From the NCBI GenBank assembly GCA_003553485.1, contig PWEJ01000163.1, forward strand, positions 1 to 56,785: DNA of 56,785 nucleotides. The letters are read 5' to 3'. The DNA is from Halanaerobiaceae bacterium (GTDB lineage: Bacteria; Bacillota; Halanaerobiia; Halanaerobiales; Halarsenatibacteraceae). Below the pieces are notes generated by a model. It made no database searches. It was not told where the DNA came from and was given only the letters and a program-made list of their open reading frames with translations. Every line of letters begins with the position of its first letter. The first letter of the stretch is position 1. This document shows, one piece after another, positions 14,253-31,248 of this stretch. A program made the position numbers and the translations under genes.

Positions 14253-15038
14253 CTAATCTTTTAAGCGGTCTAAACTCAATATTCCTATGGGGCAATTTTC
14301 AATACAAACCCGACAGCGCATACAATTAGGTTCTGCTAGATAATTATTTTCTTTTTTATAGGCCAATATAGGGTAGGGTTTTAATTCAATGGGACATACT
14401 TTACTGCAAAGAGCACATTCTCTGCATTTATCAGCATCGTTTATTACTACAGTTTTATCGATATTCTGAGTCAGCCCAAGTTTTTTGCTTAAGCCATAAA
14501 AACCTTTTTGCATTGTCCTCATGGGACAAATCCAACACCAGGCCCTGGAATTAACAGCTATGGCTAAAATTGTGGCTGCTACTATTACTACCAGATAAAC
14601 ATTTGCAAATACTGAACCAACCTGACTCAATCTAGTTCCAGGATCAGATTGCCAGGCTGTCAACATATTAGTGGAAATATTAATAATGAAAAAGGCAAAG
14701 ACCAGGGCTGCTGCCAGAGACCTTTTTAATAATTTGGGTATTTTTTCATTGGGGCTTATTTTAAGCAGGGGAACATCATAATAACTACCATGGGGACAAA
14801 AATTTCCACACCAATAAAGCCCTTTAAATAGACTCATGAAGATCATGGCAATAATTATCGGCACTACTAATAGCCCCAGGTAAGGATAAAATTGGCCTCC
14901 CACTCCAATTATCAATGATAATATCCAGGCATACTGCCGGATCCAGGTATAAGCTCTATCAGTTTTGATATTTTCATAATCCTTTTCAATATCAATATCT
15001 AAGTTTTGTTTCTTTAAGTTAGCAATCTCATCTAGCAA
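14253..15038 (-). CDS. Membrane 4Fe-4S ferredoxin-type protein (NapH/YccM-like)
   Basis: A 261-residue electron-transfer protein with about four membrane helices, two membrane-associated Cys motifs (WCGNFCPHG and WCWICPMR) and, at the C-terminus, two classical 4Fe-4S clusters (CRECALCSKVCP, CMRCRVCIENCP). This order is that of NapH/NosR-type quinol- or ferredoxin-linked proteins. A TTG start at 15038 lies 5 nt after AAAGGAGGGG, better than the upstream TTG. It is last in the larA-like/symporter operon, 99 nt after the symporter. Partner oxidoreductase not identified. Confidence 0.8.
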   Translation of the reverse strand: MLDEIANLKKQNLDIDIEKDYENIKTDRAYTWIRQYAWILSLIIGVGGQFYPYLGLLVVPIIIAMIFMSLFKGLYWCGNFCPHGSYYDVPLLKISPNEKIPKLLKRSLAAALVFAFFIINISTNMLTAWQSDPGTRLSQVGSVFANVYLVVIVAATILAIAVNSRAWCWICPMRTMQKGFYGLSKKLGLTQNIDKTVVINDADKCRECALCSKVCPIELKPYPILAYKKENNYLAEPNCMRCRVCIENCPIGILSLDRLKD

Positions 15039-15137
15039 ATAATCCCCTCCTTTTTTAATCAAATTTCTCTGGAGAAAGACTGAACAGGGTCAAAGAAGAT
15101 TTGCTAATTATTATCTTGCCACAAAAAACCTCTTTTT

Positions 15138-16550
15138 TCAAGTTAATTTATCTGGAATGTTGGCTGGTCTTTTATCAACAAAACTAATTATCAAGAAGGT
15201 CACCAGAGCCAAAGGCCAGGCTAAGAAAATGGGATGAGAGACTATCCTAATAGCAGGAACAATAAACCAAATTAGCAAAAAAACAATACCGGTAAATATG
15301 GTCCAAAAAGCAGAACTTTTACGACATAATTTGGGAATAAACAAGGTAAATAATAATACTACTGTATAAGCGGTAGTTAAGGTAAGACCTAAGAGTAAAG
15401 CATCTAATATGCCTTCAATAGTTAAGGCCAATAACAAAGTTAAAGCAGTGATAAGGACCACTACAAAACGGGAAATTATCTGCTCCTTATCTGGAGAAAT
15501 ATCCTCTTGAATATAGTTTTTCCAGATGTCACTAACTACTAAAGTAGAGGTGCCGAGCAGAAGTCCCACAGTAGTTGAAATACTGGAAGCCCAGAGGCCT
15601 GCCAGGGTTAAACCAGCCACTACCGGAGAAAGCCCCATAACTACCTGGGGCAAAGCCATGGCAGGATCTTCTAAACCAGGAAATTGAACAGCAGCAACAA
15701 TACCAAAGAGGGCACAGATAAAACCCACCGGTAAAATAATTAAACCAGCCAAGAGAAAACCCTTTTTTGCTGTTTTTTCATCTTCAGCTGCAAAGGCTAT
15801 CTGCCCCACTGCCTGGACAGAATGAGCCTGCGTTATCATCACCACAAACCAGGCAATGACCATAGCCATTCCCACTCCTGCTACTGGATCGAACCAGGGA
15901 ATATCGGCAGGCAATTCAGTTACTATAGTCTCTATACCACCAACCTGTCTGATACTCATAATACCTCCAATTATAACCCCGATATAAATTACAATAACAT
16001 TTATCAAATTAGTAAGACCTGCTCCCCAATATCCTCCTACTAAGGCTACAAAACCGAGCACAACAGCAGTAAATATAGAGCCAGTGGTAACAGTAAAAAT
16101 ATTGGGTAATAAAGCAGAAAGTATTGCTCCTCCAGCTACATATTGTAAAGAGGTTATCACTATTTGAATGATAACCTGTCCTATAACAGCAATAATTCTG
16201 CCAGCATCATCATAATAGTTGCCAAAAATTTCAGGGATTGTTGTTACCGTTAATTGTCTTAATTTAGCAGCAATGGTAAAACCAACTACAATAGCCCCGG
16301 CTCCCCAGGCAGCATTGTACATGCCTGCTGATATGCCTTGAGTATAAGCACTCTCGGCTACACCTATGGTTGAAGCTCCCCCTACAGCAATTCCCGTCAG
16401 CATAACTGCCACAATATAAGCAGGAAAACCTCTCGAAGCTAAAAAATAATCTTCTATAACTCCCTCTCCTTCACTGATTTTAGTTGAATACCAGGCCACA
16501 CCAAATAAGACAAATATGTACAGCAAAATAATAAATATAGTTATATTCAA
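15138..16550 (-). CDS. Sodium:solute symporter (SSF family)
   Basis: About 470 residues with some 12-13 membrane helices, matching the sodium/solute symporter family (GGASTIGVAESAYTQG, NAAWGAGAIVVGF, AGLWASSISTTVGLLLG, the last containing the sodium-binding Ser/Thr region). Substrate unknown. The start is probably TTG at 16550, 8 nt after GAGGAG; a GTG at 16559 abuts that site. It lies 77 nt after a LarA-like gene and before an iron-sulfur membrane protein, so it may import a 2-hydroxy acid. Confidence 0.85.
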   Translation of the reverse strand: MNITIFIILLYIFVLFGVAWYSTKISEGEGVIEDYFLASRGFPAYIVAVMLTGIAVGGASTIGVAESAYTQGISAGMYNAAWGAGAIVVGFTIAAKLRQLTVTTIPEIFGNYYDDAGRIIAVIGQVIIQIVITSLQYVAGGAILSALLPNIFTVTTGSIFTAVVLGFVALVGGYWGAGLTNLINVIVIYIGVIIGGIMSIRQVGGIETIVTELPADIPWFDPVAGVGMAMVIAWFVVMITQAHSVQAVGQIAFAAEDEKTAKKGFLLAGLIILPVGFICALFGIVAAVQFPGLEDPAMALPQVVMGLSPVVAGLTLAGLWASSISTTVGLLLGTSTLVVSDIWKNYIQEDISPDKEQIISRFVVVLITALTLLLALTIEGILDALLLGLTLTTAYTVVLLFTLFIPKLCRKSSAFWTIFTGIVFLLIWFIVPAIRIVSHPIFLAWPLALVTFLIISFVDKRPANIPDKLT

Positions 16551-16627
16551 TTTTATCACTCCTCGGATAACTTAACTAATAAAATTATTAGTGAATTGAT
16601 TTTAAGTGTTTGATTGTTAAAATAACC

Positions 16628-17932
16628 TTATTTTACTATGGGAAAAGTCAGAGCACCCTGTGGCATTATAGCAGCCTTTTTAATCTCACCTAATTTTTTT
16701 GCCTTTATAAGAGCTTTCTGGGCCGAAGCTGCTGGTATCATCCCTACCCTTGCTACTACTTCATCAGCTAATTCACTCACTAAAATCACATTATTTCTGG
16801 TGGAGATTTCAGCTGCCATTAAAGCCACATAACCTAACATGGAAAATTCATTATGTAAAGCCTCTCTAATTTTCTCAGGACTACCATAGTCAAACCAGTC
16901 TAAAAATTTATCGTTACCTACCCCCTGACTGCAGTTACTAAAAAGTACAATAGTACCTCCCTCTTTAATAGCATAACCAGCATTGATTAAGGGTTTAATC
17001 GATTGATATAGTTGTATGTCTTTAGGATAACCACCACAACTTGTCAATATCAGATCAAATTTATCGGCAACTGGAATACCAAAAGCCTCCTCAGCCACTT
17101 TAGTGCCTGCTATAAAGGCTTCCTTTAAATCACCAGCAGCAAAGGTCAGATATTCTTTATTGCCATTTACCACCACATTGATGATAAAGTCAGGCTCCAG
17201 TTTTTGCGCCGCTTCCAGCATATCCTCTGCCACTATGTTGCCCTTTAAGACTCCTGGCCTTATTTTTGTTGCCTCCACGGCAAAATTGCTATCGGCTGTT
17301 GCCTCAAGAGCTAAAGAATGATTCTCCTGAATGGAGTTATATCCAGCCACTCCTGGCAAAATACTTTTTCTGCCTCCGCCAAATCCAGCAATCATATGAT
17401 AATTTATACCGCCAGTTAAAATTAAGCGGTCCGCTTCATAAACTGTCCGATTAATTTTAACTTCTGTGCCCCGAGAGGTGTTACCTAAATTTTTAAGATC
17501 TTCTGCCTGACAATCATGCTGTTCAATATCTACTCTTTGATAGACTTCTTCTCCCACCACTGCTATATCCTCTTCTTCATTCTGGGAACGATGAGTTCCC
17601 GAAGCGATTACCACAGTGATATTTTCATCTTTGATACCCGCCTGATTCAATTCATCTAATAACAGATTTAGATAACCGCTAGTGCGATATGCCAGGCGGG
17701 TAAAATCGCTAGCTACAATAACAACCTCTTCTCCCTCATGGACAAGCTCTGTTAGAGGGGCAGAAGCAACGGGATTTCCAAGGGCCTTTTTAAATTCAGC
17801 TTGAAAATTTTCTAAAGCCAGGTCTGATTTTGGTTCAATAACCTCAGTCTCAATCTCCTCTTCTAACGTTACCGTAAAACTTTCTTTACCATAAGCAAGT
17901 TGATAATCTTTGCCAGCCAATTTCCTCAACAC
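16628..17932 (-). CDS. larA: LarA family nickel-pincer-dependent racemase/epimerase
   Basis: A 434-residue protein of the lactate racemase family, which interconverts or isomerises 2-hydroxy acids using a covalently bound nickel-pincer nucleotide. Key residues are present: DFTR (76-79), GTHR with H114, H179, K189 in GGGRKSILPG (the pincer-anchoring Lys) and H205, with the spacing H-10-K-16-H seen in Lactobacillus LarA. The family has many other substrates, so lactate is not proven. The cofactor genes larB, larC and larE are not in the window. The start is GTG 17932 or one of two nearby TTG codons. It heads an operon with a symporter. Confidence 0.82.
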   Translation of the reverse strand: MLRKLAGKDYQLAYGKESFTVTLEEEIETEVIEPKSDLALENFQAEFKKALGNPVASAPLTELVHEGEEVVIVASDFTRLAYRTSGYLNLLLDELNQAGIKDENITVVIASGTHRSQNEEEDIAVVGEEVYQRVDIEQHDCQAEDLKNLGNTSRGTEVKINRTVYEADRLILTGGINYHMIAGFGGGRKSILPGVAGYNSIQENHSLALEATADSNFAVEATKIRPGVLKGNIVAEDMLEAAQKLEPDFIINVVVNGNKEYLTFAAGDLKEAFIAGTKVAEEAFGIPVADKFDLILTSCGGYPKDIQLYQSIKPLINAGYAIKEGGTIVLFSNCSQGVGNDKFLDWFDYGSPEKIREALHNEFSMLGYVALMAAEISTRNNVILVSELADEVVARVGMIPAASAQKALIKAKKLGEIKKAAIMPQGALTFPIVK

Positions 17933-18194: not shown

Positions 18195-18299
18195 ATGGGT
18201 AATGGAGCCTGCAAATTTAAAAAAAGCTGTGATAATTACCAAAAAAAATGTGGTGTCTGTATTAATAATAACCAGTACCAGCCTTCTTTTGCTGAATAA
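18195..18299 (+). CDS. Cys-rich 34-residue micro-protein
   Basis: A short ORF with an excellent AGGAGGGT site 5 nt before its ATG. The product is MGNGACKFKKSCDNYQKKC followed by GVCINNN and a short tail. The spacing is C-x5-C-x6-C-x2-C, suggesting a zinc or iron site. A GC-rich hairpin follows the stop. The reading frame is short enough to be chance, but start signal, Cys pattern and hairpin together favour a real gene. No family assigned. Confidence 0.5.
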   Translation: MGNGACKFKKSCDNYQKKCGVCINNNQYQPSFAE

Positions 18300-18304
18300 A
18301 GCAG

Positions 18305-18327
18305 AAAGGGGGCCTCACGCCCCCTTT
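18305..18327. terminator. GC-rich hairpin, possible terminator
   Basis: AAAGGGGGC-CTCAC-GCCCCCTTT is a perfect 9-bp stem between the micro-protein and the convergent H-NOX chemoreceptor gene. T-tracts are weak on both sides. Confidence 0.5.
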
Positions 18328-18357: not shown

Positions 18358-20169
18358 TTAAATCTTATACTCAGCAAAGTTATCCTGGAAATTCTCAATT
18401 AGTTCTTTCATCTGCTCAATATAATCGGTCATTTCTTTTATCTTGGTGGAATACTCACCGACGCTGGCACTCATTTCTTCAGAGGAAGCAGAATTTTCTT
18501 CTGCAATAGCCGCTAATGAATTTAATTTTTCAATGACCTGGTTAATTTTTTGAGTTTCTTGATTGAGATTATCAACAATTTTTACTACTTGTTCTGAGGC
18601 CTGTTCGATACTTTCACTGGATACCTTATTAGTCTCAGTAACTTGCTCTAAGGCCTGGTTGCTCTCGGCAAGATTTTGAAATTGCGAACTAATGCCATCT
18701 ACTAGCTGCTGAACTTCATTGGTGAATTCCTGCAGATTATCCTGAATTCTTTCACCAGCTTTACGAGAATCTTCAGCTAACTCTCTAATTTCATCAGCCA
18801 CCACTGTAAAGCCCCGGCTATTATCCTGGGATCTGGCAGCTTCAATTGAAGCATTTAGAGACAATAGATTAGTCTGATTAGCTATATCTGACACTGTCTC
18901 TACAATTTCCATGATGTTTTTTATCTGTTCTGCTAACCTTTTGCCCTGCTCATTTACACCGGCAAAGGAATTTTGCACCTCTTCTATCATTTTATTAACT
19001 TTTTCAACTTCCCGGGCAGAATCCTGAATATTATCAACTGCCTCTTCAAGGCGCTCCTTGCTTTCACTGCCGGCATTTACCAGCTCTTCAATCTCTCTGA
19101 CATTTTCATTTACTATATAGGCCGAATTCTCAGTCTCCTCTGCCTGCTCCTGGGCACCATTAGCTACATCGTCTACCACCAGAGAGATATTATCTGAGAC
19201 TGAACTCATATCTCCAGCCAGATTTACAAAATCTTCAGAGAAACTCCTTAGATCATCAGTTCCTCCCTTTAAAAAGAGGATATCATTGCGTATATTTTCT
19301 TTAACCTCGTCGATTTCATTGGCTATAACCTCAAATTCATCATCAGTCTTTAACGTACTTGTTTGGGTCAGGTTTAAGTTTTTCAGGCTGGTAAAATCTT
19401 TTTGCAAGTATTTCATGGGAGCCAGTAGAACCCTCTGCAGAGCATAAACAACCCCGGCATTAATAAAACTGAAGAGAGGAATTTGCCAGAAGGGAGTATC
19501 TCCTCCTACTATAGCTAAAGAAATTAAAGAAATCAAGAAAGTTACCAAAGCTATCTTGCTGCTAATACTCTTGAAGATGCCCAGCGATAATAGTCTATTT
19601 AACTTAAAAGACTGCTGCTGAAAAAAACTTTCAGCGAAAATAACATCTACTGTTAACTCGCCCTTATCTCCCCTGTTCTCCCTATTGATTTCCTTTACTT
19701 CAATATCCTCGGCAAAAAAGCTGCCACTACCCTTTAATAACCCTAAAAAGTAATCAAACATACCTCGTTTAGAGCGATAAATCAACCGCAGTGTATGTTC
19801 ATCTCTTACTTCTGGAATGATTCTCGGGGGATTAGCACCCTGGATCATTTTGGTCAATTGTTTATGCACCGTATCCATGGTTTCTAAAAATTCTTTTAAA
19901 TGGCGGCCAGTGAAATAGCTGGGAAACCAGTCGGCAAAGGAATTAATATTTTCTCGGCCAATTATCTGCCATAGTTCCCCGGGCTCCTTATTAACTTCTG
20001 CTGCAATTACATTGACTAAATCAAAGGCCTTCTGGTCTTCAATATTCATTAAGGGGGAAATTATTAAATCTTCATCCCAACTGGAAGTTCTCTTGGCTTT
20101 ATCAACAATTTCTTCTCCATATTTATCTGCTAAAGTTTTCAGCCAGGTTGAAACAACTGTTCCCTTCAT
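18358..20169 (-). CDS. H-NOX (heme-based gas sensor) methyl-accepting chemotaxis protein
   Basis: A 603-residue chemoreceptor. Residues 1-185 are an H-NOX domain aligning without gaps to the Caldanaerobacter (Thermoanaerobacter) tengcongensis protein in the diagnostic places: proximal heme ligand H102 in VHKQLTK, P115, heme-propionate motif Y131-S133-R135, and the distal W9, N74 and Y140 that stabilise bound O2 in that protein. Two membrane helices (about 205-250) follow with almost no extracellular loop, then a HAMP-like linker and a full MCP signalling coiled coil with the hairpin around [17 protein letters not shown]. The ATG at 20169 follows GGAGG. It is last in an operon with RsbW-like, HD-GYP and two STAS genes. 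Predicted output: CheA control by O2 or NO. Confidence 0.93.
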
Positions 20170-20186
20170 AAAGTTGCCTCCTTTAT

Positions 20187-20489
20187 TCACATGTCAATAA
20201 TATTGTTCAAATGAATTATATCAAACATCTTCTTCACATAATCAGAGGTGACATTGATTATCTTAAGTTCCCCGCCTCTATCATTTAACTCTTTATTCAG
20301 CAATAATATCTTGCCGAGACCAAAACTATCAATCATTTCTACTTTTGAAAAATCCAACACTATTTGCTGATAACCTTCACAGATATAGCTTAAAACTTCC
20401 TCTTTAAAGCTATCTGAAGTAGAGATATCAATTTTCTCACCGACCTCAATAATTATTTTGTCTTTATCGTTATTATTCTGTGATGTCAT
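20187..20489 (-). CDS. STAS-domain anti-sigma-factor antagonist-like protein (copy 1)
   Basis: A 100-residue SpoIIAA/RsbV-like STAS domain with the phosphorylation loop [10 protein letters not shown], where the Ser of DSFG is the expected target of an RsbW-type kinase. The ATG at 20489 follows AAAGGGGG. It lies 20 nt downstream of another STAS gene and 17 nt upstream of the H-NOX receptor. The two STAS proteins share the ending pattern YVKKMF, so they are tandem duplicates. Confidence 0.85.
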
Positions 20490-20509
20490 GCTACTTCCCC
20501 CTTTAAGAT

Positions 20510-20812
20510 TCACTCTTCTATATTAACCAGCTTTGATAAATGGACCATCCTAAACATTTTTTTAACATACTCTGATTCTATATTAATTATTTTTAATGAA
20601 CCTTCTTTTTCCTGTAATATCTTTTGCATGAGCAATATTTTACCCAATCCGGAGCTGTCAATCATTCTTACTTTTCCAAAGTCCAGCGCAAAATCTAAAT
20701 AGCCCTGGTCTAACAAATCCATAAACATTTCCTTTAAATCCTCGGCATTAACCAGATCAATTTTTTCCTCTAAAATCAAATAAACAGTATCATCCTTTAC
20801 TTCGCTTTTCAT
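20510..20812 (-). CDS. STAS-domain anti-sigma-factor antagonist-like protein (copy 2)
   Basis: A 100-residue STAS protein with the phospho-loop MIDSSGLGKI. It parallels the next gene along its length (LDFGKVRMIDSSGLGKILL versus [19 protein letters not shown]). It starts 5 nt after the HD-GYP gene, with GGGGG upstream of the ATG. Likely role: substrate of the RsbW-like kinase encoded first in the operon. Confidence 0.85.
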   Translation of the reverse strand: MKSEVKDDTVYLILEEKIDLVNAEDLKEMFMDLLDQGYLDFALDFGKVRMIDSSGLGKILLMQKILQEKEGSLKIINIESEYVKKMFRMVHLSKLVNIEE

Positions 20813-20817
20813 ATATA

Positions 20818-22125
20818 TTATACCCCCTGTTCTAACCGCTTTTGTTCTTCCACTTTATTCTGGAAGGCTTTAAACTTCTGTCTCGTCTTTTTTTGGGCCG
20901 TTTTTCTCAGTCCATTAAATTCAGCTAGATTATCTGTAATTATGGCAGTAACTTTAGGTTCAAGTTCACCCTGAGATACTTGCTCAGCTAAAATGCCTCT
21001 CACCTTCTCAATTTTCATCCCCTTACGATAAGGCCTATCCTCTGTTAAGGCCGTAAAAATATCGGCTACAGCAATAAGTTTCGCTTCATAGGGTATTAGA
21101 TTGCTTTCCAATCCAAAGGGATAACCCTGACCATTTAATTTTTCATGATGATAGGAAGCCCATTCCCTTATATTTGCCATACTCTCTGCTGCCTGCAGAC
21201 AGTAATTTGAGTAATAAGAATGACTTCTCATTATGGCCCATTCCTGTTTCTCTAATTTATCTGCTTTCTCTAAAATATCCAGAGGAATAATTAATTTGCC
21301 CAGGTCATGCAAAAGAGCTGCCACTTTTATTTGCAGACAGTTTTGTTCAGATATGTTACTTTTTCTGGCTAAATTTATTGCCACTTCAGCTATTCCCTGA
21401 GAATGAGTAGCTGTAAAGGGACTTCTAAAGTCAATGATCTGACTCATCATTTTGCTGATATTTAGAAGTTCTTCAGTTGACAAAGGTTTGTGATAATCAG
21501 AGAAGAATTTCTCAATAATGAAGTCACTTCTTTGCTGGTTAACTACATCAAGCCAAAAAGCTTCTCGTTCGGTTAAATAATAAAATTCTTCCACAGCCTC
21601 CGGCCAGAACCACTGGCCTGAATGATTGGCAATAACCGTTTTAACCTTATTTTTTTTCTGGAGTACATCTAATTCACTATCGGACTCAGGCAGCAGTACA
21701 GCAATCCTGTCAGCAAGATGGATTAATTGCCCCAACAGGATTTCCTCTGGCATCGTCTTGCTTATATCATCACTAATATCTCTATACTCCAAATGATGGT
21801 TTTTAATTATTGCTGCTGTTCCTGGCAGAGGAAAATATTCTTCTAATAATAAATAACCCACCAGGGCATGGCGATTATCCTTTCTATCAAAGGATAAATC
21901 GGAAAATCTTTGGTTTAAGTAAAAGACTCCTATATCATGTATCAAAGCCGAAATCACCAGTTTGTAAAGCAGGTCTCGATTTAGGTTTAATCTTTTTCCT
22001 AATCTATAGGCAATATAGGCTACTTTTTTATGATGACCAACTACGGTAGAGGAGATTAAATCTAAGGCTCGAGATATAGTTTTGATCATATCAATAAAAG
22101 TTATTGTTTGTTCGCTTTTATCCAT
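20818..22125 (-). CDS. Tandem HD domain / HD-GYP protein, likely c-di-GMP phosphodiesterase
   Basis: About 435 residues with two HD domains. The first (VGHHKKVAYIAYRL ... ALIHDIG) is HD-like; the second is a full HD-GYP with HDLGK and the diagnostic HHEKLNGQGYP. HD-GYP proteins hydrolyse c-di-GMP. The C-terminal 45 residues are rich in Lys, Arg and Glu. No receiver or PAS domain precedes the HD domains. The ATG at 22125 is preferred after AGGTG, though two other starts lie within 9 nt. It sits between the RsbW-like kinase and the STAS pair, linking c-di-GMP to partner switching. Confidence 0.88.
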   Translation of the reverse strand: MDKSEQTITFIDMIKTISRALDLISSTVVGHHKKVAYIAYRLGKRLNLNRDLLYKLVISALIHDIGVFYLNQRFSDLSFDRKDNRHALVGYLLLEEYFPLPGTAAIIKNHHLEYRDISDDISKTMPEEILLGQLIHLADRIAVLLPESDSELDVLQKKNKVKTVIANHSGQWFWPEAVEEFYYLTEREAFWLDVVNQQRSDFIIEKFFSDYHKPLSTEELLNISKMMSQIIDFRSPFTATHSQGIAEVAINLARKSNISEQNCLQIKVAALLHDLGKLIIPLDILEKADKLEKQEWAIMRSHSYYSNYCLQAAESMANIREWASYHHEKLNGQGYPFGLESNLIPYEAKLIAVADIFTALTEDRPYRKGMKIEKVRGILAEQVSQGELEPKVTAIITDNLAEFNGLRKTAQKKTRQKFKAFQNKVEEQKRLEQGV

Positions 22126-22143
22126 TATCATCACCTAATAATA

Positions 22144-22554
22144 TTATTGGGATTTAAAATATATTGTTATTTCATTGCCAGGGTCGTTAAATTCTACTCT
22201 GTCAACTGCTTTTTTTATCATGCATAAACCCCGTCCTTTTTCTGATAGAACTGGCATATTGTCCCATTCAATATCTTCCCAATTAAAACCTGGACCGGGG
22301 TCTCTTACCTGTAAGATAACTTCAGATTTAGAGGCATAAATTATTATATCAACAAATTTATCAGGTTCATTACAACCATGCTCTACAGCATTAGCTAGCA
22401 TCTCTCTAGCCGTCATCTCCAGTCTAAAATCAAGGTCATCTATTGCAGAATCCACCTGGAAAATAAACTCTTTAATTGAAGCAATAGTTGGAGAAATTGC
22501 ATCTGATTTACAGGCCATTTTAAGTTCTTTTTTTAGCTGCTCATCCTCGGCCAT
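22144..22554 (-). CDS. RsbW/SpoIIAB-like serine-protein kinase (anti-sigma type ATPase)
   Basis: A 136-residue GHKL-fold ATPase with N-box EMLANAVEHG, G1 box VRDPGPGF and G2 box KGRGLCMI, the length and layout of RsbW. Such proteins phosphorylate STAS antagonists and sequester a sigma factor or another partner. The ATG follows GAGAGGAG. It is first in a five-gene operon (kinase, HD-GYP, two STAS, H-NOX receptor). No sigma factor gene is nearby, so the regulated partner is unknown. Confidence 0.87.
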   Translation of the reverse strand: MAEDEQLKKELKMACKSDAISPTIASIKEFIFQVDSAIDDLDFRLEMTAREMLANAVEHGCNEPDKFVDIIIYASKSEVILQVRDPGPGFNWEDIEWDNMPVLSEKGRGLCMIKKAVDRVEFNDPGNEITIYFKSQ

Positions 22555-22644: not shown

Positions 22645-22686
22645 TAAATAATTTGATGGCCGGTATAAACCCCGACCATCAAAAAA
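22645..22686 (-). terminator. Terminator after the CZB-receptor/STAS unit
   Basis: A 12-bp stem (TTTGATGGTCGG with CCGGCCATCAAA on the minus strand) is followed by TTATTTATT. It separates the upstream receptor-STAS pair from the kinase-HD-GYP-STAS-H-NOX operon. Confidence 0.75.
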
Positions 22687-22707: not shown

Positions 22708-23046
22708 TTAATTAATAAGTTCCTCTATAGCTTCATCGTTAGAATCATATATATCAATAATCTCTCCCAGTTTAGTCAATTCACAAACTCTTTTTACCTT
22801 TTCATTCATGTTGGTCAATACTAACTCTCCATTTTTCTCTCTAATAAACTTAAATAAGGTTATGACAAAACCAATTCCTGAACTGTCTAGATAAGATACA
22901 TCGGACATATCTAAAACTAGCTTATCTACTTCAGCCTGGCGCAATTTATCTTTGGCTTCTTCTTTTGCAGGGTTGGAGTTTTCAAAGACAATATCCCCTT
23001 CTATATGCAAAATACCTACGTCACGATTTAATTTTAAATCCATCAT
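22708..23046 (-). CDS. STAS-domain protein coupled to chemoreceptor
   Basis: A 112-residue STAS protein with phospho-loop YLDSSGIGFV and final ELINL-like helix. It starts 2 nt after the stop of the CZB-type chemoreceptor, with GGGAGG inside the receptor's 3' end, so it is translationally coupled. It may be a target of the RsbW-like kinase in the next operon. Confidence 0.85.
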   Translation of the reverse strand: MMDLKLNRDVGILHIEGDIVFENSNPAKEEAKDKLRQAEVDKLVLDMSDVSYLDSSGIGFVITLFKFIREKNGELVLTNMNEKVKRVCELTKLGEIIDIYDSNDEAIEELIN

Positions 23047-23048
23047 AA

Positions 23049-24743
23049 TTAGTTTTCCTCCCTTACCTTAAATTCTTTGATTAAAGCTTTAAGGTGCTCA
23101 GCCATATTTTCTAGCTCATCGGCAGAGGCAGCTACTTCTTCTACATTAGCACTCTGTTCTTCAGCCAGAGCAGAAACCTCTTCAGAGCTGGCGGCATTAT
23201 CTTCTACCGTTCCCCCAATTGAATCCAGTGCTTTATCAATATCAACGATTCTACTTTCTAATTCCCCGACAAATTCTTTTATTTCTCTCACTCTCCTAGA
23301 AGTATCCTGAGAAGATGACACCATTTTATCCAGCGATTCACCGGCATCATTAATAATTGAAATTTGTTTCTCTACCTCTTCTATATTTGTATCCATAGAG
23401 TTGATAGTAGCCTCTGTTTCTGATTGAATATCCTCTATTAGACTGGTTATCTGGCCAGCGGCTTCAGAGGATTCTTCTGCTAACTGGCGGACTTCCTCTG
23501 CTACCACAGCAAAGCCTGTTCCATGTTCTCCTGCTCTAGCAGCTTCAATAGCTGCATTGAGTGCCAGCAGATTAGTCTGAGAGGAAATACCTTCTATCAT
23601 ATCAACCATTTCGCCGATCTGTTCTGACCGTTGTCCTAATTTTTCAATGGCATCGGTGGCAAAATGAACAGTTTCACTTACGGTATCGAGCTGACTAATT
23701 GCTTGCTTGATTGAGTTCTGTCCCTCTTCAGCTACATTTAAAGACTTATCGGCAATCTCTAAACTCTCTTCTACATCTTCCCGCAGGTGCTCTCCATCAT
23801 CTTCTAATTCATCGGAAATTTCCTGAATAGTGGCTATTTCCCTGCTGATAGTCTCGCTACCTTCAGCGACTTCGGTGATACTGCGAGCTATCTCCTCGGC
23901 ACTGTGACCGCTTTCTTCTGAGGCAGTGCTTAAATTAGTGGAGGCCTCTACCACTGAATCAGAGCTATCCTGGATACTGCTTACCAGGTTTCTGAGCTTA
24001 ACTATCATGGCATTGAAGGAATCTGCCAGAGAGCCAATTTCATCAGTTTTATCAATAGCTATTTTTTCAGTTAAATTTCCGGCTGCAATTTTTTCTGCTA
24101 CCTCGCCTAGTTCTGTTATAGGAGTAACGGTATTTTTAGTCAGTAAAAGAGCTATTAATATAGCCAGAATCACAGAGATAATTATAGAACCCACTGAAAC
24201 CATGTTGGCCATGGCTATAATATCATCTGCTTCACTTTGCAGGCTAGCTATTTCACCATCAGTTAAGTCAACAATCTCTGCCAAAAGCCCTCTGGTTTCT
24301 TCCAGGGCCGGTGCTACTTCCTGGCGAAAATGTTCCTCAGCAGCCTCTTCTTCCCCATCAGCATAGAGCTCTACTACCTCTTCCCCTTCAACATGGATGG
24401 TTCTATGGGGCTCTTCTAGGGCTTCATATTGCTCAGCATAATAATCCTCCGGAGTTATATCATAATACCATTGCCCTAAATTGCATTCTTCATAATGATC
24501 TGCATCTGCCATTTCACCACCAGTGAGCATATCATAGCGCTCAATAGCCCAGTTTAAGTGGTCACCTTCTAAATCCAGGAGAAAAGACTGAAATTCCATC
24601 ATCTCATTTACTTCTCCCTCTATCTCTACAACCTGGTCATTAAAATGATTGGTCACCAGACTACCAGCAACGAAGACTAAAACAATTAATAAAAAAGCAA
24701 GTGAAAATTTGGCGAATAAAGAACTTTTGATTTTTTTAAACAT
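23049..24743 (-). CDS. Methyl-accepting chemotaxis protein with extracytoplasmic CZB-like zinc domain
   Basis: A 564-residue receptor: membrane helix 1 (about 10-30), an extracytoplasmic four-helix region (31-185), membrane helix 2, a HAMP domain, then a complete MCP coiled coil with [15 protein letters not shown] at the tip. The sensor region has the CZB pattern H62 (DHLNW), C87 in CNLGQWYY, and H113/H117 (HRTIH), matching the zinc-binding His and Cys residues of CZB domains, here outside rather than in the cytoplasm. Zinc or hypochlorous-acid sensing is known for some CZB proteins; the ligand here is inferred. A sigma-A promoter lies about 160 nt upstream. Confidence 0.88.
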
Positions 24744-25036: not shown

Positions 25037-27031
25037 CTATAATTTATCAGCCAGGACTTTACCTGGATATCTTTGATCTCCTTCCCGTCGGGTTAAATTC
25101 TGCTCATCAAAATATTCTAATAGCGGCAGGGCATACTTTCTACTACTATCTAAAAGATCACGAAAATCACTTAACTCGATGCTATCCTGGCCAGAAAAAT
25201 AATTAAGTAATAATTCTTCTGCTTTTTTTAAGGCTTCAGTGGCAAAATAAAGTTCTTCTGTTATTCTTACCAGTTGGCCCTGTCTTTCTAAGGCTAAAAC
25301 AATCTCTTCCAGTATATTCTCCTCTTTTAATTCCTTAGAAAAATTCTGCTCTTTGAATATAATCTCAGGAAGTTCAGCTAAGTTAGGAGGAGAAAAAAGA
25401 TCCCTCTTATAAAGTGTTAGAAGTTCTCGTTTAAGTTCCGCCATTTTACCAGTAAATTCTACCTCAAAATCAGGTAAAGCCACATAATTTTCCTGCTCCT
25501 TAATCACTGCTGCCGCAGCCAAATCCTCCAATAATTGATTTAACTCAGTATTGACCAGTTTCACCTCCAGACGGGAACGCAACTCCTCCTTACCAATCCC
25601 TGGTCTTAGAGGATAACTTTTATGATAATCAGATATAATCTCCTTGATCTCATCTACTAATTGGCAATGAGTTTTTTTCGCCAGCCAGCTAGGTTTCTGA
25701 TAACGAGCAAGCTCTATTACTTTATCCTCATTTTCTAATTGAGTTAAAATTTCCCTTAATTCCTTTTCAGAAAGATTTGTTCTGGCAATCAGGGCTGGCA
25801 ACTTCAGGGGACGAGCTGCTAATTCTAAGGTTAAAAGAATCCTTTCATCCGGAGTGCCATTCTCCTTGATCTCTAGCTCTCTAATGACTTCTTTATCTTT
25901 CATCTTTCTCCGGGGAGGAGAATTTTCAATTATCTTACCTCCCCCTATCGTAATCATGGGTGAATAGCGTCTAATCACATAATTTTCCAGATAACGCGAG
26001 ACCACCTCCTCTTCCAAGCGATATTGAACTAAGGCCTTTTCTCCTGGAAGCACCTCTTCTTTATCAATCATATAGACTCTACCTAAAACTTCTCGAGCGC
26101 CGATATGAAAACGGATTCTGGTACCCTGTTCTAAAACAAGCGGTGCGGAGGAAAGAAGCTTAACTCTAGCATCCAAACGAGAGGTGGTTAGCAAGCTCTC
26201 AGGTTCAGCTAAAACGTCCCCTCTTTCAATCTGCTCTAAGTCAATGCCAGCTAAATTAATACCTACTCTTTCTCCTGGAAAGACCTCTTCCCGCTGGTCA
26301 TTATGGACCTGCAGACTGCGGATGCGAGCTTCTTCTTTACCGGGGTAGATCATTATAGTCTGACCTTTGTTTAAAGAACCTCTTACCAGAGTTCCCGTAA
26401 CTACAGTACCAAAACCTGACAGGGTAAAGACTCTATCAACGGGCAGATACGGATTAGCGTCTTTGTCTTTACCAGGAATCTGCATGGCTACCCGGGCTAA
26501 AGTTTCTTTTAACTCAGGAAGGTTCTCTCCTGTAGTTCCTGAAACAGTTACTATAGGTGCCTCGGCTAAAAAAGTATCCTCAAGTTGTTCCCGACAGTCT
26601 TCAATCACCAGTTCCAACCAGTCTTCTTCCACCAGATCTATTTTCGTTATCACCACAACACCGTACTCCACCTGGAGCAATTCCAGGATAGCTAAATGCT
26701 CCCTGGTCTGAGCCATAATACCTTCATCTGCTGCTATTACCAGCAGAGCAAGATCAACTCCGCCAGCACCGGCCAACATGTTCTTAACAAATTTTTCATG
26801 GCCTGGAACATCGACTATACCAGCTTTAATGGACTCAGTTAGCTCAAGGCCTGTAAACCCTAAATCTATAGAAATCCCCCTCTCCTGTTCCTCTTTAAGG
26901 CGGTCAGTATCGGTTCCTGTGAGGGCGGAAATTAAAGTTGTTTTACCATGATCAATATGTCCTGCCGTACCAATAATTATGTTTTTTTCTCTAAAGGTAT
27001 CTTCAGCTGCCTTATTCTCTGCTATCATCAT
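25037..27031 (-). CDS. selB: Selenocysteine-specific elongation factor SelB
   Basis: A 664-residue translation factor that delivers Sec-tRNA to UGA codons marked by a SECIS hairpin. The N-terminal GTPase has GHIDHGKTT, a [17 protein letters not shown] switch, DVPGHEKF and TKID; EF-Tu-like domains follow, then C-terminal winged-helix repeats (from about residue 400) that bind the SECIS RNA. The ATG follows GAGGTGA and overlaps the end of selA by 20 nt, so the pair is coupled. Its RNA targets here should be selD and grdB. Confidence 0.96.
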
Positions 27032-28463
27032 AAATCACCTCTAAGGCTTCTTGTAAAGAACTAGAGATAATATCAATATCTCCTGGTTGCAGGGTTCTAA
27101 CATCAAAGATCAATCTATCATTAATCAAGCGGGTAAATATGGGAGGATAATTGGTTCTAATTTCCTTGGCTAATCGATGGATTTTACCAGTCTCCTCCTG
27201 CAAGGTAACGATCCTGGTCTTTAACTGTGCTAAAGGATACGCTCCTCCTCCTACCCGAGAAGAATCATCGGCAATAGCTGCCGTTATCCCGGCAGGCAGA
27301 AATTCTTCGATGGCCTCTAAAAGTCTCTCGGCCCTCTCCTGTAGTTTTGTAGTCGGAGAACTTAACATTCTCAAGGTTGGTATCTCTTCCATCACACCCT
27401 CGGGGTCTTGATAGGCTTTTAAAGTGCCCTCTAAAGCCGCCAGAGTATATTTATCCACTCTTATAGCTCTCGTTAGGGGGTGATTTTTTAGCTTAGCAAT
27501 ATAATCTTTACTCCCCACTATGATTCCTGCCTGAGGCCCTCCCAGTATTTTATCCCCACTAAAGGTGACTAAATCAGCACCTGCAGCTACTCTTTCCTCT
27601 ACTGTCGGCTCAGGTGTTAAGCCAACTTGTTCCATATTGGTAAAGACACCGCTGCCTAAATCATCTAATACTGGAAGATTATATTCCTCACCTAAACGAA
27701 CTAATTCCTCTAAACTGATCTCGCGAGTAAAACCAACCACTCGATAATTACTGGTATGTACTTTCAGCAAGAGGGCTGTTTCTTCGTTTATAGCCTCAAC
27801 AAAATCTTCTGGATAAACCTTATTGGTGGTACCCACCTCTCTTAATTTAGCCCCACTTTGTTTCATAACTTCAGGTATCCGAAAAGAACCACCAATCTCT
27901 ATTAATTCACCCCGGGATATTATAACCTCTTGATCAGCCGCCAATGCTGACAGGGCCAATAAAACAGCAGCTGCATTGTTATTCACTACTAAAGCATCTT
28001 CCGCTCCTGTTAGTTGACAGAGCAGCTCAGCTACATTGTCATAACGGGAACCCCTTTCCCCGCTTTCTCTATCAATTTCCAGGGTGGTATAGTGGCTGCT
28101 CACCATCTGCAACATTTCTTTAGCCCGCTCACTTAGTAAGGACCTGCCTAAGTTAGTATGGACAACAACTCCAGTGGCATTTACTGCTGGAGCCAGATTA
28201 GGCCGTAATGTTTTTTCAATTGCTGCCTGCAAACTCTCTCTTAAATTTTCCACCTTAAAACTTTCACTCTTGCTCTTTGCTGCATCGACTTCATCTTGTT
28301 CTATTAAATTTATAAGTTCAGACCGAGAATTGGAGATCAGTTGGCGAATTTCTGCCAATACCAATTTACGACCATATTTCTCAATCAATTTTTGTACCTC
28401 TTCGTCAGCCAAAAAATCATTAACTGCCGGGAGGCGACTTAATAATTTATTTTTAATATCCAA
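27012..28463 (-). CDS. selA: L-seryl-tRNA(Sec) selenium transferase
   Basis: PLP enzyme converting seryl-tRNA-Sec to selenocysteyl-tRNA-Sec with selenophosphate from SelD. The 483-residue product has NATGVVVHTNLGRSLLS, NNNAAAVLLAL and the PLP-lysine motif FSGDKILGGPQAG. The TTG start follows GAGGAGG by 7 nt. It lies between the grd operon terminator and selB, which it overlaps. No clear sigma-A promoter was found in the short gap upstream. Confidence 0.96.
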   Translation of the reverse strand: MDIKNKLLSRLPAVNDFLADEEVQKLIEKYGRKLVLAEIRQLISNSRSELINLIEQDEVDAAKSKSESFKVENLRESLQAAIEKTLRPNLAPAVNATGVVVHTNLGRSLLSERAKEMLQMVSSHYTTLEIDRESGERGSRYDNVAELLCQLTGAEDALVVNNNAAAVLLALSALAADQEVIISRGELIEIGGSFRIPEVMKQSGAKLREVGTTNKVYPEDFVEAINEETALLLKVHTSNYRVVGFTREISLEELVRLGEEYNLPVLDDLGSGVFTNMEQVGLTPEPTVEERVAAGADLVTFSGDKILGGPQAGIIVGSKDYIAKLKNHPLTRAIRVDKYTLAALEGTLKAYQDPEGVMEEIPTLRMLSSPTTKLQERAERLLEAIEEFLPAGITAAIADDSSRVGGGAYPLAQLKTRIVTLQEETGKIHRLAKEIRTNYPPIFTRLINDRLIFDVRTLQPGDIDIISSSLQEALEVIYDDSRE

Positions 28464-28562
28464 TTTTAAACCTCCTCAAATTTTCATCCTCATGTACAAT
28501 ATTCTTTAAAGCCAGAATAATTCCTGCCTTCTAGAGGCTTTGAAATTGATTAAATTTATCAC

Positions 28563-28598
28563 CAAAAAAATAAACCAGGTCTGAAGGAAAGACCTGGT
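28563..28598 (-). terminator. Terminator of the grdX-grdE-grdB operon
   Basis: ACCAGGTCT pairs with AGACCTGGT (9 bp); on the minus strand the hairpin is followed by TTTATTTTTTT. It is 26 nt past the grdB stop and upstream of selA. Confidence 0.85.
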
Positions 28599-28623
28599 AA
28601 TTAAAGGGGCTTATTTTATTTAT

Positions 28624-29943
28624 TTAGACTTCTAATTTTTCGAAGACCCGTTGGTCTTCAACCTCTGTGGTCAGAGCTTGTAGAGCCCGTTCAATTATTT
28701 CTCTTCGTTCATTTTTCTCATCATCTTCATCTAATTTAGGATTGCCCAGGGGGTGAGGGATTGCTATTGCCGGCACTATTCTGTTAGCACCTACAGTTAA
28801 AGAAATCGGGACAACTGTAGCCACATGTACTACCGGTAAACCTTCTCTTTCAATCTCTTTTACCATCGTTGCTCCGCAACGAGTACAGGTACCTCAGGTA
28901 GAGGTCAATATTACAGCCTGCACTCCTTCAGACAACAATTTTTGGGCAATTTCTCGGGCAAAGACTTTGGCATTGGCCACTGATGTGCCGTTACCAACAG
29001 TAGAATAATAATATTCATGCAGCTTACCTATCCGGCCTTCCTCTTCTAAGTCTCTTAATACATCCACAGGCAAGACGCAATCAGCATCCTCATTGGCAAA
29101 GACAGGATCATATCCTCCATGAGCTGTTTCGTGGCTATCTTCAGTTAAATCGGCAAAATCAGCTATTTTATATTTTCCATACTTAGAGGCACTAGAAGAT
29201 TCAATCCTATCTGGATTGCCATTGGGTACAATCCCCCCAGAGGTGACTAAAGCTATTTTAGCCTGACTAAGATCCTCTATAGCTGGAGCCGGCTCAACTC
29301 TATCAAAAGTAGGCATGGGGTATTCAGAATCATAATCAGCGCCCTTTATTTTAGCCATAAGCATCTTGACTGCTCTTTTAGCTCCCCGCTCATCAGCAAA
29401 AGTATTCTTTCTTATCCCCCGGGGAAGATAATTAGCCTCTTCAGGAGAACCTGGTTTCCCCTCCCTCTTAAGATACAACTTAATAAAATCAGCTATATCT
29501 GGCAAAGCCTCTCTCATGCTGGCAGCAGAATCACCAGTTTCAATAAAGTAACCATATTGACTAAACATCTCATAACCTGGATTCTCTGGATATATACCAA
29601 CAACTGCCGGCATATCTAAATCAGCAGCAATTTCAGCCACCATCCCGCAGGCCATGCCGTACCGACCAGCGTTAAAGGCTGGACCTGCCAGTATAAGGTC
29701 AGGCTCTAATTCAATTAGATATTCCCTTATCTGACTGGCAGCCTGTTCTTTCTTTTCATTAGCAAAACCATCACCACAAATTATAGTGGCCTTAATATCA
29801 ACATAGTCCTTTAATTCCCCGGCCAGAGCGGTGCCAGGACCAACTGCCCCCTTTTTCTTTTGAGGCGGTAGATTGGCTTTATCCTCTCCTCCCTGCTGGC
29901 CAAAAAATTGATTTAAATAATGGACAATTTTAATTTTAGCCAT
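28624..29943 (-). CDS. grdB: Glycine reductase complex component B gamma subunit, selenoprotein
   Basis: Selenoprotein of 439 residues that binds substrate in the glycine reductase complex, which reductively deaminates glycine to acetyl phosphate with energy gain. The TGA at 28894-28896 is in frame and reads STST-U350-GTCTRCGATM, the UxxCxxC active site of GrdB-type proteins. Standard calling would split it into a 349- and an 80-residue protein. A 17-nt hairpin 11 nt after the UGA is the predicted SECIS. The start is ATG after GGAGGAG, 21 nt after grdE. Paralogues GrdF (sarcosine) and GrdH (betaine) are similar; the glycine riboswitch upstream favours glycine. Confidence 0.93.
28866..28882 (-). 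promoter_or_regulatory. Putative SECIS hairpin of grdB
   Basis: On the minus strand TCGTTGC-GGA-GCAACGA is a perfect 7-bp stem with 3-nt loop, starting 11 nt after the UGA, with outer TACC/GGTA pairing extending it. It has the same 17-nt build as the selD hairpin. Confidence 0.65.
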
Positions 29944-29964
29944 GTAAAATCTCCTCCTGTCTCT

Positions 29965-31248
29965 TTAATATCCTCGAGCCGTTAATTTATTAAATCCAAG
30001 TTCATTTGTCGCGCCAATAATCGCCTGAATTTCAACTTCAATACTGCCATCTTCTTTAAGACTGCCAGCAAAACCACCGGCAATATTATCGGCATGTTCA
30101 TCATTACCAATAACCTTTTCCAGTGGTGGTAAGATAATGGTCTCATTGGCATTACCTGTGGAGACTACAGCATCTGCTTCTGGAGTTGAATCGGCTAAAG
30201 ACTGAGAAGCTCCGTCTCTTCCAGCAAATTCATCGGTTATTAGGACTGTCTTAATCCCTCTATTTTCGAGCTTTTTGCAGTTCATAATTAAATCGGCATC
30301 GGGATTACCGAAGCCTTCTTCAGAGATTATTGCTGCTTCTAAACCAATTTTCTCCGCTAATCTAGCTGTAAAACTAGAAGACCTCTCTTTATCAGCCAGG
30401 GTAACATTTTCATTGGTAATTATGGTGCCGACAAAGTTAATTTCCTTACCATGCTTCTCATAAAGCTCTTCAATGATAGGATTATTTTGGTGAAAATAGG
30501 TGGTATTTTTATCGCAGGCAGAAACACAATTCCCACTGACTATTGCTCCATCCATAACTTCTGTAGGAGAAATCAAAGTTGGTAATATCTCTTTAGCATC
30601 AACACCATATACATAAGTGTCATGTAAGAGCCCCTGACTCTGTAACATATAAATATATCCCACTATTGGCAACCCACCATTTAAAGAGCAGGCTTCTAAT
30701 AATGGTTTATGCTCATAAATTCTAGTTTCATGAGCTTTAGCATCTTTAGCTGCTTCCCCTATATAGTTAGCTGCTGTCAAACCAATTAGACGCAGGACCT
30801 CTTCGTGGATATGCTGTTTAATTCCCTGGCTTACTTCACAGTTAATAACTATATTTATAGTTTTAGAAAAGGGAGTATATTCTGCCCCGGGTCCACTCAT
30901 GTCAATTATACCCTCTTGAAAACCAACTACCTCCCCTGTGGTAACCACGGCCGTGCCAGCCAGCACTTTAGTGATACCCGAGCCGACCATATCATCATCG
31001 CCAGTAAAACCTGGGAACATATCGCCACCGCTATTTTTAAAACGAGGCTCTATAACATCCTTGACAGGCATAATTCTAACATCATCACCAGGCCTCACTA
31101 TTTCTAAATCAATATCAGCAATGCGATGATCATCCTTAATCTTAGCAAGTAACTTATCTTTGTTAATAAATAAAGTTCTATCTTCCACTCTATTTTCTGA
31201 GCCGAATTTTACATCTTCAATGAAAATTTTTTCTAGTTGTAATTTAAT
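29965..31248 (-). CDS. grdE: Glycine reductase component B alpha/beta proprotein
   Basis: Proprotein of 427 residues that is self-cleaved into the alpha and beta subunits of component B. The cleavage Cys is C241 in GAIVSGNCVSACDKN, which becomes the pyruvoyl residue that binds glycine as a Schiff base. The family-typical N-terminus (KLQLEKIFIEDVKFG) is encoded upstream of the first conventional start (GTG 31188); reading back reaches an ATT at 31248, 6 nt after GGAGGTGA, with an in-frame stop just before. The only in-frame start near the ribosome site is therefore ATT. GrdG and GrdI are close paralogues. Confidence 0.9.
   Translation of the reverse strand: MKLQLEKIFIEDVKFGSENRVEDRTLFINKDKLLAKIKDDHRIADIDLEIVRPGDDVRIMPVKDVIEPRFKNSGGDMFPGFTGDDDMVGSGITKVLAGTAVVTTGEVVGFQEGIIDMSGPGAEYTPFSKTINIVINCEVSQGIKQHIHEEVLRLIGLTAANYIGEAAKDAKAHETRIYEHKPLLEACSLNGGLPIVGYIYMLQSQGLLHDTYVYGVDAKEILPTLISPTEVMDGAIVSGNCVSACDKNTTYFHQNNPIIEELYEKHGKEINFVGTIITNENVTLADKERSSSFTARLAEKIGLEAAIISEEGFGNPDADLIMNCKKLENRGIKTVLITDEFAGRDGASQSLADSTPEADAVVSTGNANETIILPPLEKVIGNDEHADNIAGGFAGSLKEDGSIEVEIQAIIGATNELGFNKLTARGY

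Follow-up and report, generated by a model that had tools for sequence, protein, structure and literature searches.

Partner switches in which a STAS protein controls an enzyme of cyclic di-GMP (c-di-GMP) metabolism have been described before. In Pseudomonas aeruginosa, the STAS protein HsbA controls the c-di-GMP enzyme HsbD (PMC5085249), and SiaC/SiaD and BgrV/BgrR are further pairs of this kind, of which SiaC is known to bind SiaD (PMC8457831). Here we analyze a locus on a 56.8-kb contig stretch ("the window") of a salt-loving, anaerobic Halanaerobiaceae bacterium, whose genome (G000) is 97.7% complete. An RsbW-like kinase, STAS proteins and a tandem HD/HD-GYP phosphodiesterase are encoded there beside two methyl-accepting chemotaxis proteins (MCPs), one with a CZB domain and one with an H-NOX domain. 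Partner switches acting on c-di-GMP synthases are already known; the unusual feature here is the built-in chemoreceptors. An earlier note on this DNA had centered on the H-NOX receptor. Our comparison identifies the locus as a chemoreceptor-linked partner-switching cassette made up of CZB-MCP, one STAS protein (STAS-A), the RsbW-like kinase, HD/HD-GYP and one or two further STAS proteins (STAS-B), to which the H-NOX receptor is a local add-on.

The comparison set consists of 38 genomes of the order Halanaerobiales. RsbW orthologues occur in 11 of them, and a CZB-MCP is part of the RsbW cluster in 11 out of 11; its orthologues in all 10 other RsbW-bearing genomes are 49-63% identical. The clusters hold one to three STAS genes, which fall into two distinct groups across the cassettes, STAS-A (orthologues 42-53%) and STAS-B. 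HD/HD-GYP is present in 8 of the 11 clusters (split over two contigs in G037, with the HD gene on the second), and so is a PP2C phosphatase, which is missing from the cassettes of the window genome, G004 and G005, the three members of the window's family. Because the switch stands beside CZB-MCP in every RsbW-bearing genome, chemoreceptor, partner switch and HD-GYP protein are genuinely associated, with CZB-MCP, not H-NOX, as the conserved receptor. The cassette of G004 contains an additional MCP, whose sensor domain is of the PDC type; counting the H-NOX-MCP of the window, second chemoreceptors have thus been added to the cassette on at least two occasions, each time a different one.

The conserved receptor has a CZB profile score of 48.2 bits against a cut-off of 29.4, and the zinc-ligand pattern (H, CxLGxW, H...H) is visible. 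In the window protein (23049-24743), the CZB domain is placed between both membrane segments and ahead of HAMP, and hence may face the outside of the cell. According to a preprint, the CZB chemoreceptor McpA of Salmonella responds to O2 and redox via Zn2+ (PMC13370339). H-NOX-MCP and CZB-MCP may therefore report the same condition.

All genes of the locus are on the minus strand, listed here in the order of transcription:

23049-24743 (-): CZB-domain chemoreceptor, with a transmembrane segment, CZB (residues 62-124), a second transmembrane segment, HAMP and an MCP signalling domain (Pfam CZB E 1.4e-12; HAMP; MCPsignal)
22708-23046 (-): STAS-A, anti-sigma-antagonist type, phosphosite YLDSSGIG (STAS E 7.6e-25; TIGR00377 above cut-off)
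22652-22683 (-): terminator-like hairpin of 12 pairs between CZB-MCP/STAS-A and the RsbW operon
22144-22554 (-): RsbW/SpoIIAB-like serine kinase (HATPase_c_2 E 5.9e-15)
20818-22125 (-), start approximate: tandem HD + HD-GYP protein (HD_5 E 9.1e-36)
20510-20812 (-): STAS-B1, phosphosite MIDSSGLG (STAS E 6.8e-11)
20187-20489 (-): STAS-B2, phosphosite MIDSFGLG (STAS E 4.5e-15; TIGR00377 above cut-off)
18358-20169 (-): chemoreceptor with H-NOX (residues 1-160), a hairpin of two transmembrane segments and an MCP signalling domain (HNOB E 1.3e-44; MCPsignal E 2.5e-27)
18305-18327 (-): strong intrinsic terminator closing the operon, 3' of H-NOX-MCP

Domains were called with Pfam profiles, and all five genes of the operon exceed the curated cut-offs (HATPase_c_2, HD/HD_5, STAS, STAS, HNOB + MCPsignal). 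The hairpins at 18327-18305 and 22683-22652 support a five-gene transcription unit. Its genes are spaced by about 5-20 nt when counted from ATG codons with an upstream ribosome-binding site; these probable starts are ATG 20169, ATG 20489 and ATG 22125, while those of the open reading frame list (GTG 20190, GTG 20513 and GTG 22134) are mechanical. The gap between STAS-B2 and H-NOX-MCP measures 17 nt and contains no terminator. The five genes, with the order and gaps given in the earlier note, agree with our coordinates, strand and Pfam domains. That note had overlooked CZB-MCP and a third STAS gene, STAS-A, directly upstream; STAS-A begins only 2 nt past CZB-MCP.

The linkage of the H-NOX receptor to the switch was surveyed in 63 other H-NOX receptor loci; 14 belong to the order and 50 to named genomes, with an overlap of one locus. 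The five-gene set is absent from all 63, and no STAS or stand-alone RsbW gene adjoins the receptor in any of them, although a few of the contigs are short on one side. Some H-NOX genes have neighbors tagged RSBW, but these are proteins of at least 291 residues that resemble ordinary histidine kinases and were rejected. As far as the H-NOX linkage is concerned, the gene order is unique to this strain, a result which the earlier note had itself named as speaking against its reading. In G004, of the same family, and in G008, the H-NOX-MCP gene is located between TatD and NifS-ThiI-MurB. In the window genome, these neighbors are still together, about 255 bp apart, with no H-NOX-MCP between them; from this intact but empty slot, the gene appears to have been relocated. 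In G005, it sits upstream of flagellar genes. In the protein tree, the window H-NOX-MCP groups with those of G004 and G005, and this grouping fits descent and relocation better than a recent horizontal gain. The simplest reading is that an inherited H-NOX-MCP gene moved into the kinase operon, with a linkage that is peculiar to the window genome.

As to the receptor itself, residues 1-160 align without gaps to the crystallized H-NOX domain of C. tengcongensis (47% identity, E 1.5e-49). The proximal His102, P115, the heme motif YxSxR (Y131/S133/R135) and the distal residues W9, N74 and Y140 are kept in the numbering of that protein, as is F78. Every key residue thus matches the Caldanaerobacter protein, in line with the heme pocket reported earlier, and an O2-type pocket is predicted; for the reference protein itself, a role as O2 sensor is termed presumed (PMC9814294). 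Since nearly all related H-NOX-MCPs share these residues, the pocket is a standard O2-type one, typical rather than special. The signalling domain is matched by the MCPsignal profile, yet its hairpin tip departs from the canonical EAARAGExGRGF. Most Halanaerobiales H-NOX-MCPs (window 18358-19358, loci L017-L030) read EAARS[SNAQ][DE]N at this position, while other MCPs, among them clostridial H-NOX-MCPs and the adjoining CZB-MCP, have EAARAGE or a sequence near it. Besides its O2-type H-NOX-MCP, G004 holds a stand-alone H-NOX protein of 197 aa (contig 7, L031 8019-8612), in which M/F/Y/L replace W9/N74/F78/Y140. Like NO-selective types, it lacks the distal Tyr, and its gene directly precedes flagellin-like genes.

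The family profile of the RsbW-like kinase matches the structures of B. subtilis RsbW (6m36) and SpoIIAB. The N, G1 and G2 boxes are present, with the invariant residues E46, R50, N55, D85-P-G-x-G and G107-R-G-L. Its score with the curated SpoIIAB equivalog, 31.8 bits, is below the cut-off of 135; the protein is related to SpoIIAB without being SpoIIAB itself. The STAS proteins align with their family and keep the phosphorylatable Ser past the conserved Asp. STAS-B1 finds its best match in a STAS protein of the G004 cassette (54%); in STAS-B2, the phosphosite Ser is retained and the next Ser substituted, and the G004 cassette has a similar copy with DSIGMG.

Gene inventories of the window genome were compiled by family searches. 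Six region-2 sigma factors were found, namely a pair of RpoD-like ones (assigned by length and sequence), a pair of SigH type, one FliA/WhiG and one ECF; SigB, SigF and SigG are not represented among them, in a genome that is 97.7% complete. The target of the switch is therefore probably the phosphodiesterase and/or FliA-FlgM, and a sigma target, one option of the earlier note, becomes unlikely. A cluster of the order CheA-CheW-CheW-CheC-CheD is found on contig C105, where CheC and CheD were named by sequence inspection. PP2C phosphatases are encoded at other loci, with 9 matches above cut-off. A second partner-switch locus on contig C159 (L178 1-7309) comprises a partial RsbW paralogue at the contig end, a STAS gene and a receiver-like PP2C. 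Also encoded there are a hybrid histidine kinase, whose CZB-like domain scores below threshold, and a protein with an HD domain.

Both domains of the HD/HD-GYP protein keep H...HD...H...HH...D in the alignment, and the second carries the GYP motif. The HD/HD-GYP proteins of the cassettes do not form one clade. That of the window groups with proteins whose genes otherwise stand alone (support 100/100), those of Halanaerobium and G008 form a second lineage, and that of G005 a third; enforcing their monophyly costs 82 log-likelihood units and is rejected (p-AU 4e-5). In G052, of a different family, a fourth HD/HD-GYP gene lies beside STAS and a PP2C-kinase fusion. At least three lineages have supplied the HD/HD-GYP slot, and such repeated recruitment argues that the phosphodiesterase matters to the switch and is functionally tied to it.

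H-NOX genes are found in 10 of the 11 RsbW genomes compared with 15 of all 38 (naive p 6e-5), and within the largest genus in 6 of 6 compared with 8 of 12 (p 0.03). In those 10 genomes, the H-NOX and RsbW genes are mostly unlinked, which is what makes the co-occurrence suggestive.

We propose a model in which the cassette switch, with H-NOX-MCP at the end of the kinase operon, would couple oxygen/redox avoidance to cyclic-dinucleotide breakdown through a STAS-regulated HD-GYP protein; to this model, which is drawn from sequence, we give about an even chance. The H-NOX-MCP would bind O2 (and NO/CO) and feed CheA, so that its position in the operon would provide co-expression with the switch and no private wire to the kinase. 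The conserved Ser of the STAS proteins would be phosphorylated by RsbW and dephosphorylated by a PP2C from another locus, e.g. the one on C159, which has its own STAS and kinase. Depending on their phosphorylation state, the STAS proteins would bind and regulate the HD-GYP phosphodiesterase, possibly also FlgM/FliA, as HsbA binds HsbD. The net outcome would be avoidance of oxygen or redox conditions by swimming, coupled to cyclic-dinucleotide breakdown. Several points weigh against this model. The linkage of H-NOX and switch is seen at one of 64 loci and could reflect a neutral rearrangement; the p-values of the co-occurrence are uncorrected for phylogeny and may mirror which species swim; both H-NOX and RsbW are absent from the three other genomes of the genus to which the window belongs, although two of these are only about 76% complete; the window locus contains no phosphatase gene; and the interactions of kinase, STAS and HD-GYP proteins are all predicted. 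The functional reading of the earlier note stands with regard to the predicted O2-type pocket, the anatomy of co-transcription, the intact kinase, STAS phosphosites and HD-GYP site, and the presence of CheA and CheW. It is not supported for the H-NOX linkage, the sigma target and the assured c-di-GMP substrate, nor for one gas signal steering chemotaxis, a sigma factor or other partner and c-di-GMP together, which had been drawn from gene order.

The strongest competitor, somewhat less probable than our model but still to be taken seriously, is that the genes are neighbors only: H-NOX-MCP would have landed by chance rearrangement, use the operon promoter and signal solely to CheA, while the switch and HD-GYP work with CZB-MCP or alone. 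The missing STAS or RsbW neighbors at the 63 other H-NOX loci, the labile position of the gene between G004, G008 and G005, and the occurrence of H-NOX-MCPs elsewhere without a switch speak for this explanation; the 17-nt spacing without a terminator and the presence of H-NOX in 10 of 11 RsbW genomes even when unlinked speak against it. At the other extreme, signals from CZB-MCP in every case, and from H-NOX-MCP or a PDC-type MCP as interchangeable additional inputs, could reach RsbW/STAS, which would directly gate HD-GYP independently of CheA. We consider this unlikely; if true, a CheA-independent branch would tie oxygen/redox taxis to cyclic-dinucleotide breakdown. A similarly low probability applies to the variant of our model in which HD/HD-GYP degrades 3'3'-cyclic GMP-AMP (cGAMP) rather than c-di-GMP and the switch controls a cGAMP pathway. 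Here the nearest solved protein in profile searches is relevant, V-cGAP3 (5z7c, E 8.6e-69, compared with 1.4e-41 for 4mcw), which is named a 3'3'-cGAMP-specific phosphodiesterase; for this reason c-di-GMP, the substrate assumed in the earlier note, is not assured. However, the single-sequence match to V-cGAP3 is strong for the second domain only, its selectivity is metal-tunable according to the title of a study that PMC12607878 cites, and a substrate cannot be read from sequence. Least probable of all is a classical anti-sigma switch: the RsbW-like kinase would act as an anti-sigma factor, from which the STAS proteins would release a sigma factor upon an oxygen or redox signal. Kinase and STAS families do resemble SpoIIAB/RsbW and SpoIIAA/RsbV, and the FliA/WhiG-type sigma factor of the genome is similar to the SigB/F/G group. 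Yet no member of that group itself was found, and no sigma gene was recognized in the cassettes examined, most of which contain HD/HD-GYP.

An artefactual contig join was rejected as an origin of the gene order: the locus is internal to the 56.8-kb contig, the closest kin of the H-NOX are receptors of the same family, and the GC content of the H-NOX gene (38.8%) equals that of the window (38.9%) within 0.1 points. A 34-codon open reading frame (window 18195-18299, +) converges on the end of the H-NOX operon; it has a good ribosome-binding site and encodes a small protein with four cysteines, MGNGACKFKKSCDNYQKKCGVCINNNQYQPSFAE. The flanks (window 14253-17932 and 25037-31188) contain on one side genes for a LarAH10-like nickel racemase, a sodium/solute symporter and a polyferredoxin-like protein, and on the opposite side selB, selA and glycine/betaine-reductase-like genes.

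A literature search on H-NOX in Halanaerobiales, on CZB with STAS/RsbW and on partner switching with HD-GYP revealed no description of the association, in a library that lacks most subscription journals; the cassette of chemoreceptor, partner switch and phosphodiesterase appears to be undescribed in the papers searched. This wider cassette is a more interesting object than the H-NOX linkage: kinase and STAS are conserved beside a chemoreceptor and, mostly, a repeatedly recruited phosphodiesterase, in a genome where the usual sigma partners were not found. Should the proteins interact, an output other than CheA would be open to chemoreceptors, and the compact five-gene operon would allow the oxygen avoidance of an anaerobe to be studied against its cyclic-dinucleotide state.

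Among known systems, HsbR/HsbA/HsbD (PMC5085249) shares a phosphorylation-controlled STAS protein that binds a c-di-GMP enzyme and a flagellar/chemotactic link, the interaction in the window being a prediction; HsbD is a synthase, whereas the window enzyme is an HD-GYP phosphodiesterase, and the Hsb module has no heme receptor. SiaABCD of P. aeruginosa and BgrSTUWV of Sinorhizobium meliloti (PMC8457831) likewise represent partner switches on c-di-GMP enzymes, but their targets are synthases, not phosphodiesterases, and the described modules include no MCP chemoreceptor. V-cGAP3 of Vibrio cholerae (5z7c) has the same tandem HD + HD-GYP architecture in a different gene context. The CZB chemoreceptors McpA of Salmonella and TlpD of H. 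pylori also carry the zinc-binding domain on an MCP; unlike in these, the CZB domain of the window protein lies between two membrane segments before HAMP, and its gene adjoins STAS/RsbW. The O2-sensing stressosome of V. brasiliensis (PMC4976288) combines heme-based O2 sensing with STAS proteins and a kinase, and aerotaxis has been suggested as its output; its heme is bound inside RsbR, whereas in the window a separate chemoreceptor carries the heme domain, and the operon has no RsbR-type gene. The H-NOX chemoreceptor of C. tengcongensis (PDB 1u4h and others) is the same H-NOX-MCP fusion, with identical numbering of the heme pocket and the distal Tyr/Trp/Asn; the Halanaerobiales receptors differ from it in their divergent MCP tip, and the window gene in sharing an operon with a partner switch.

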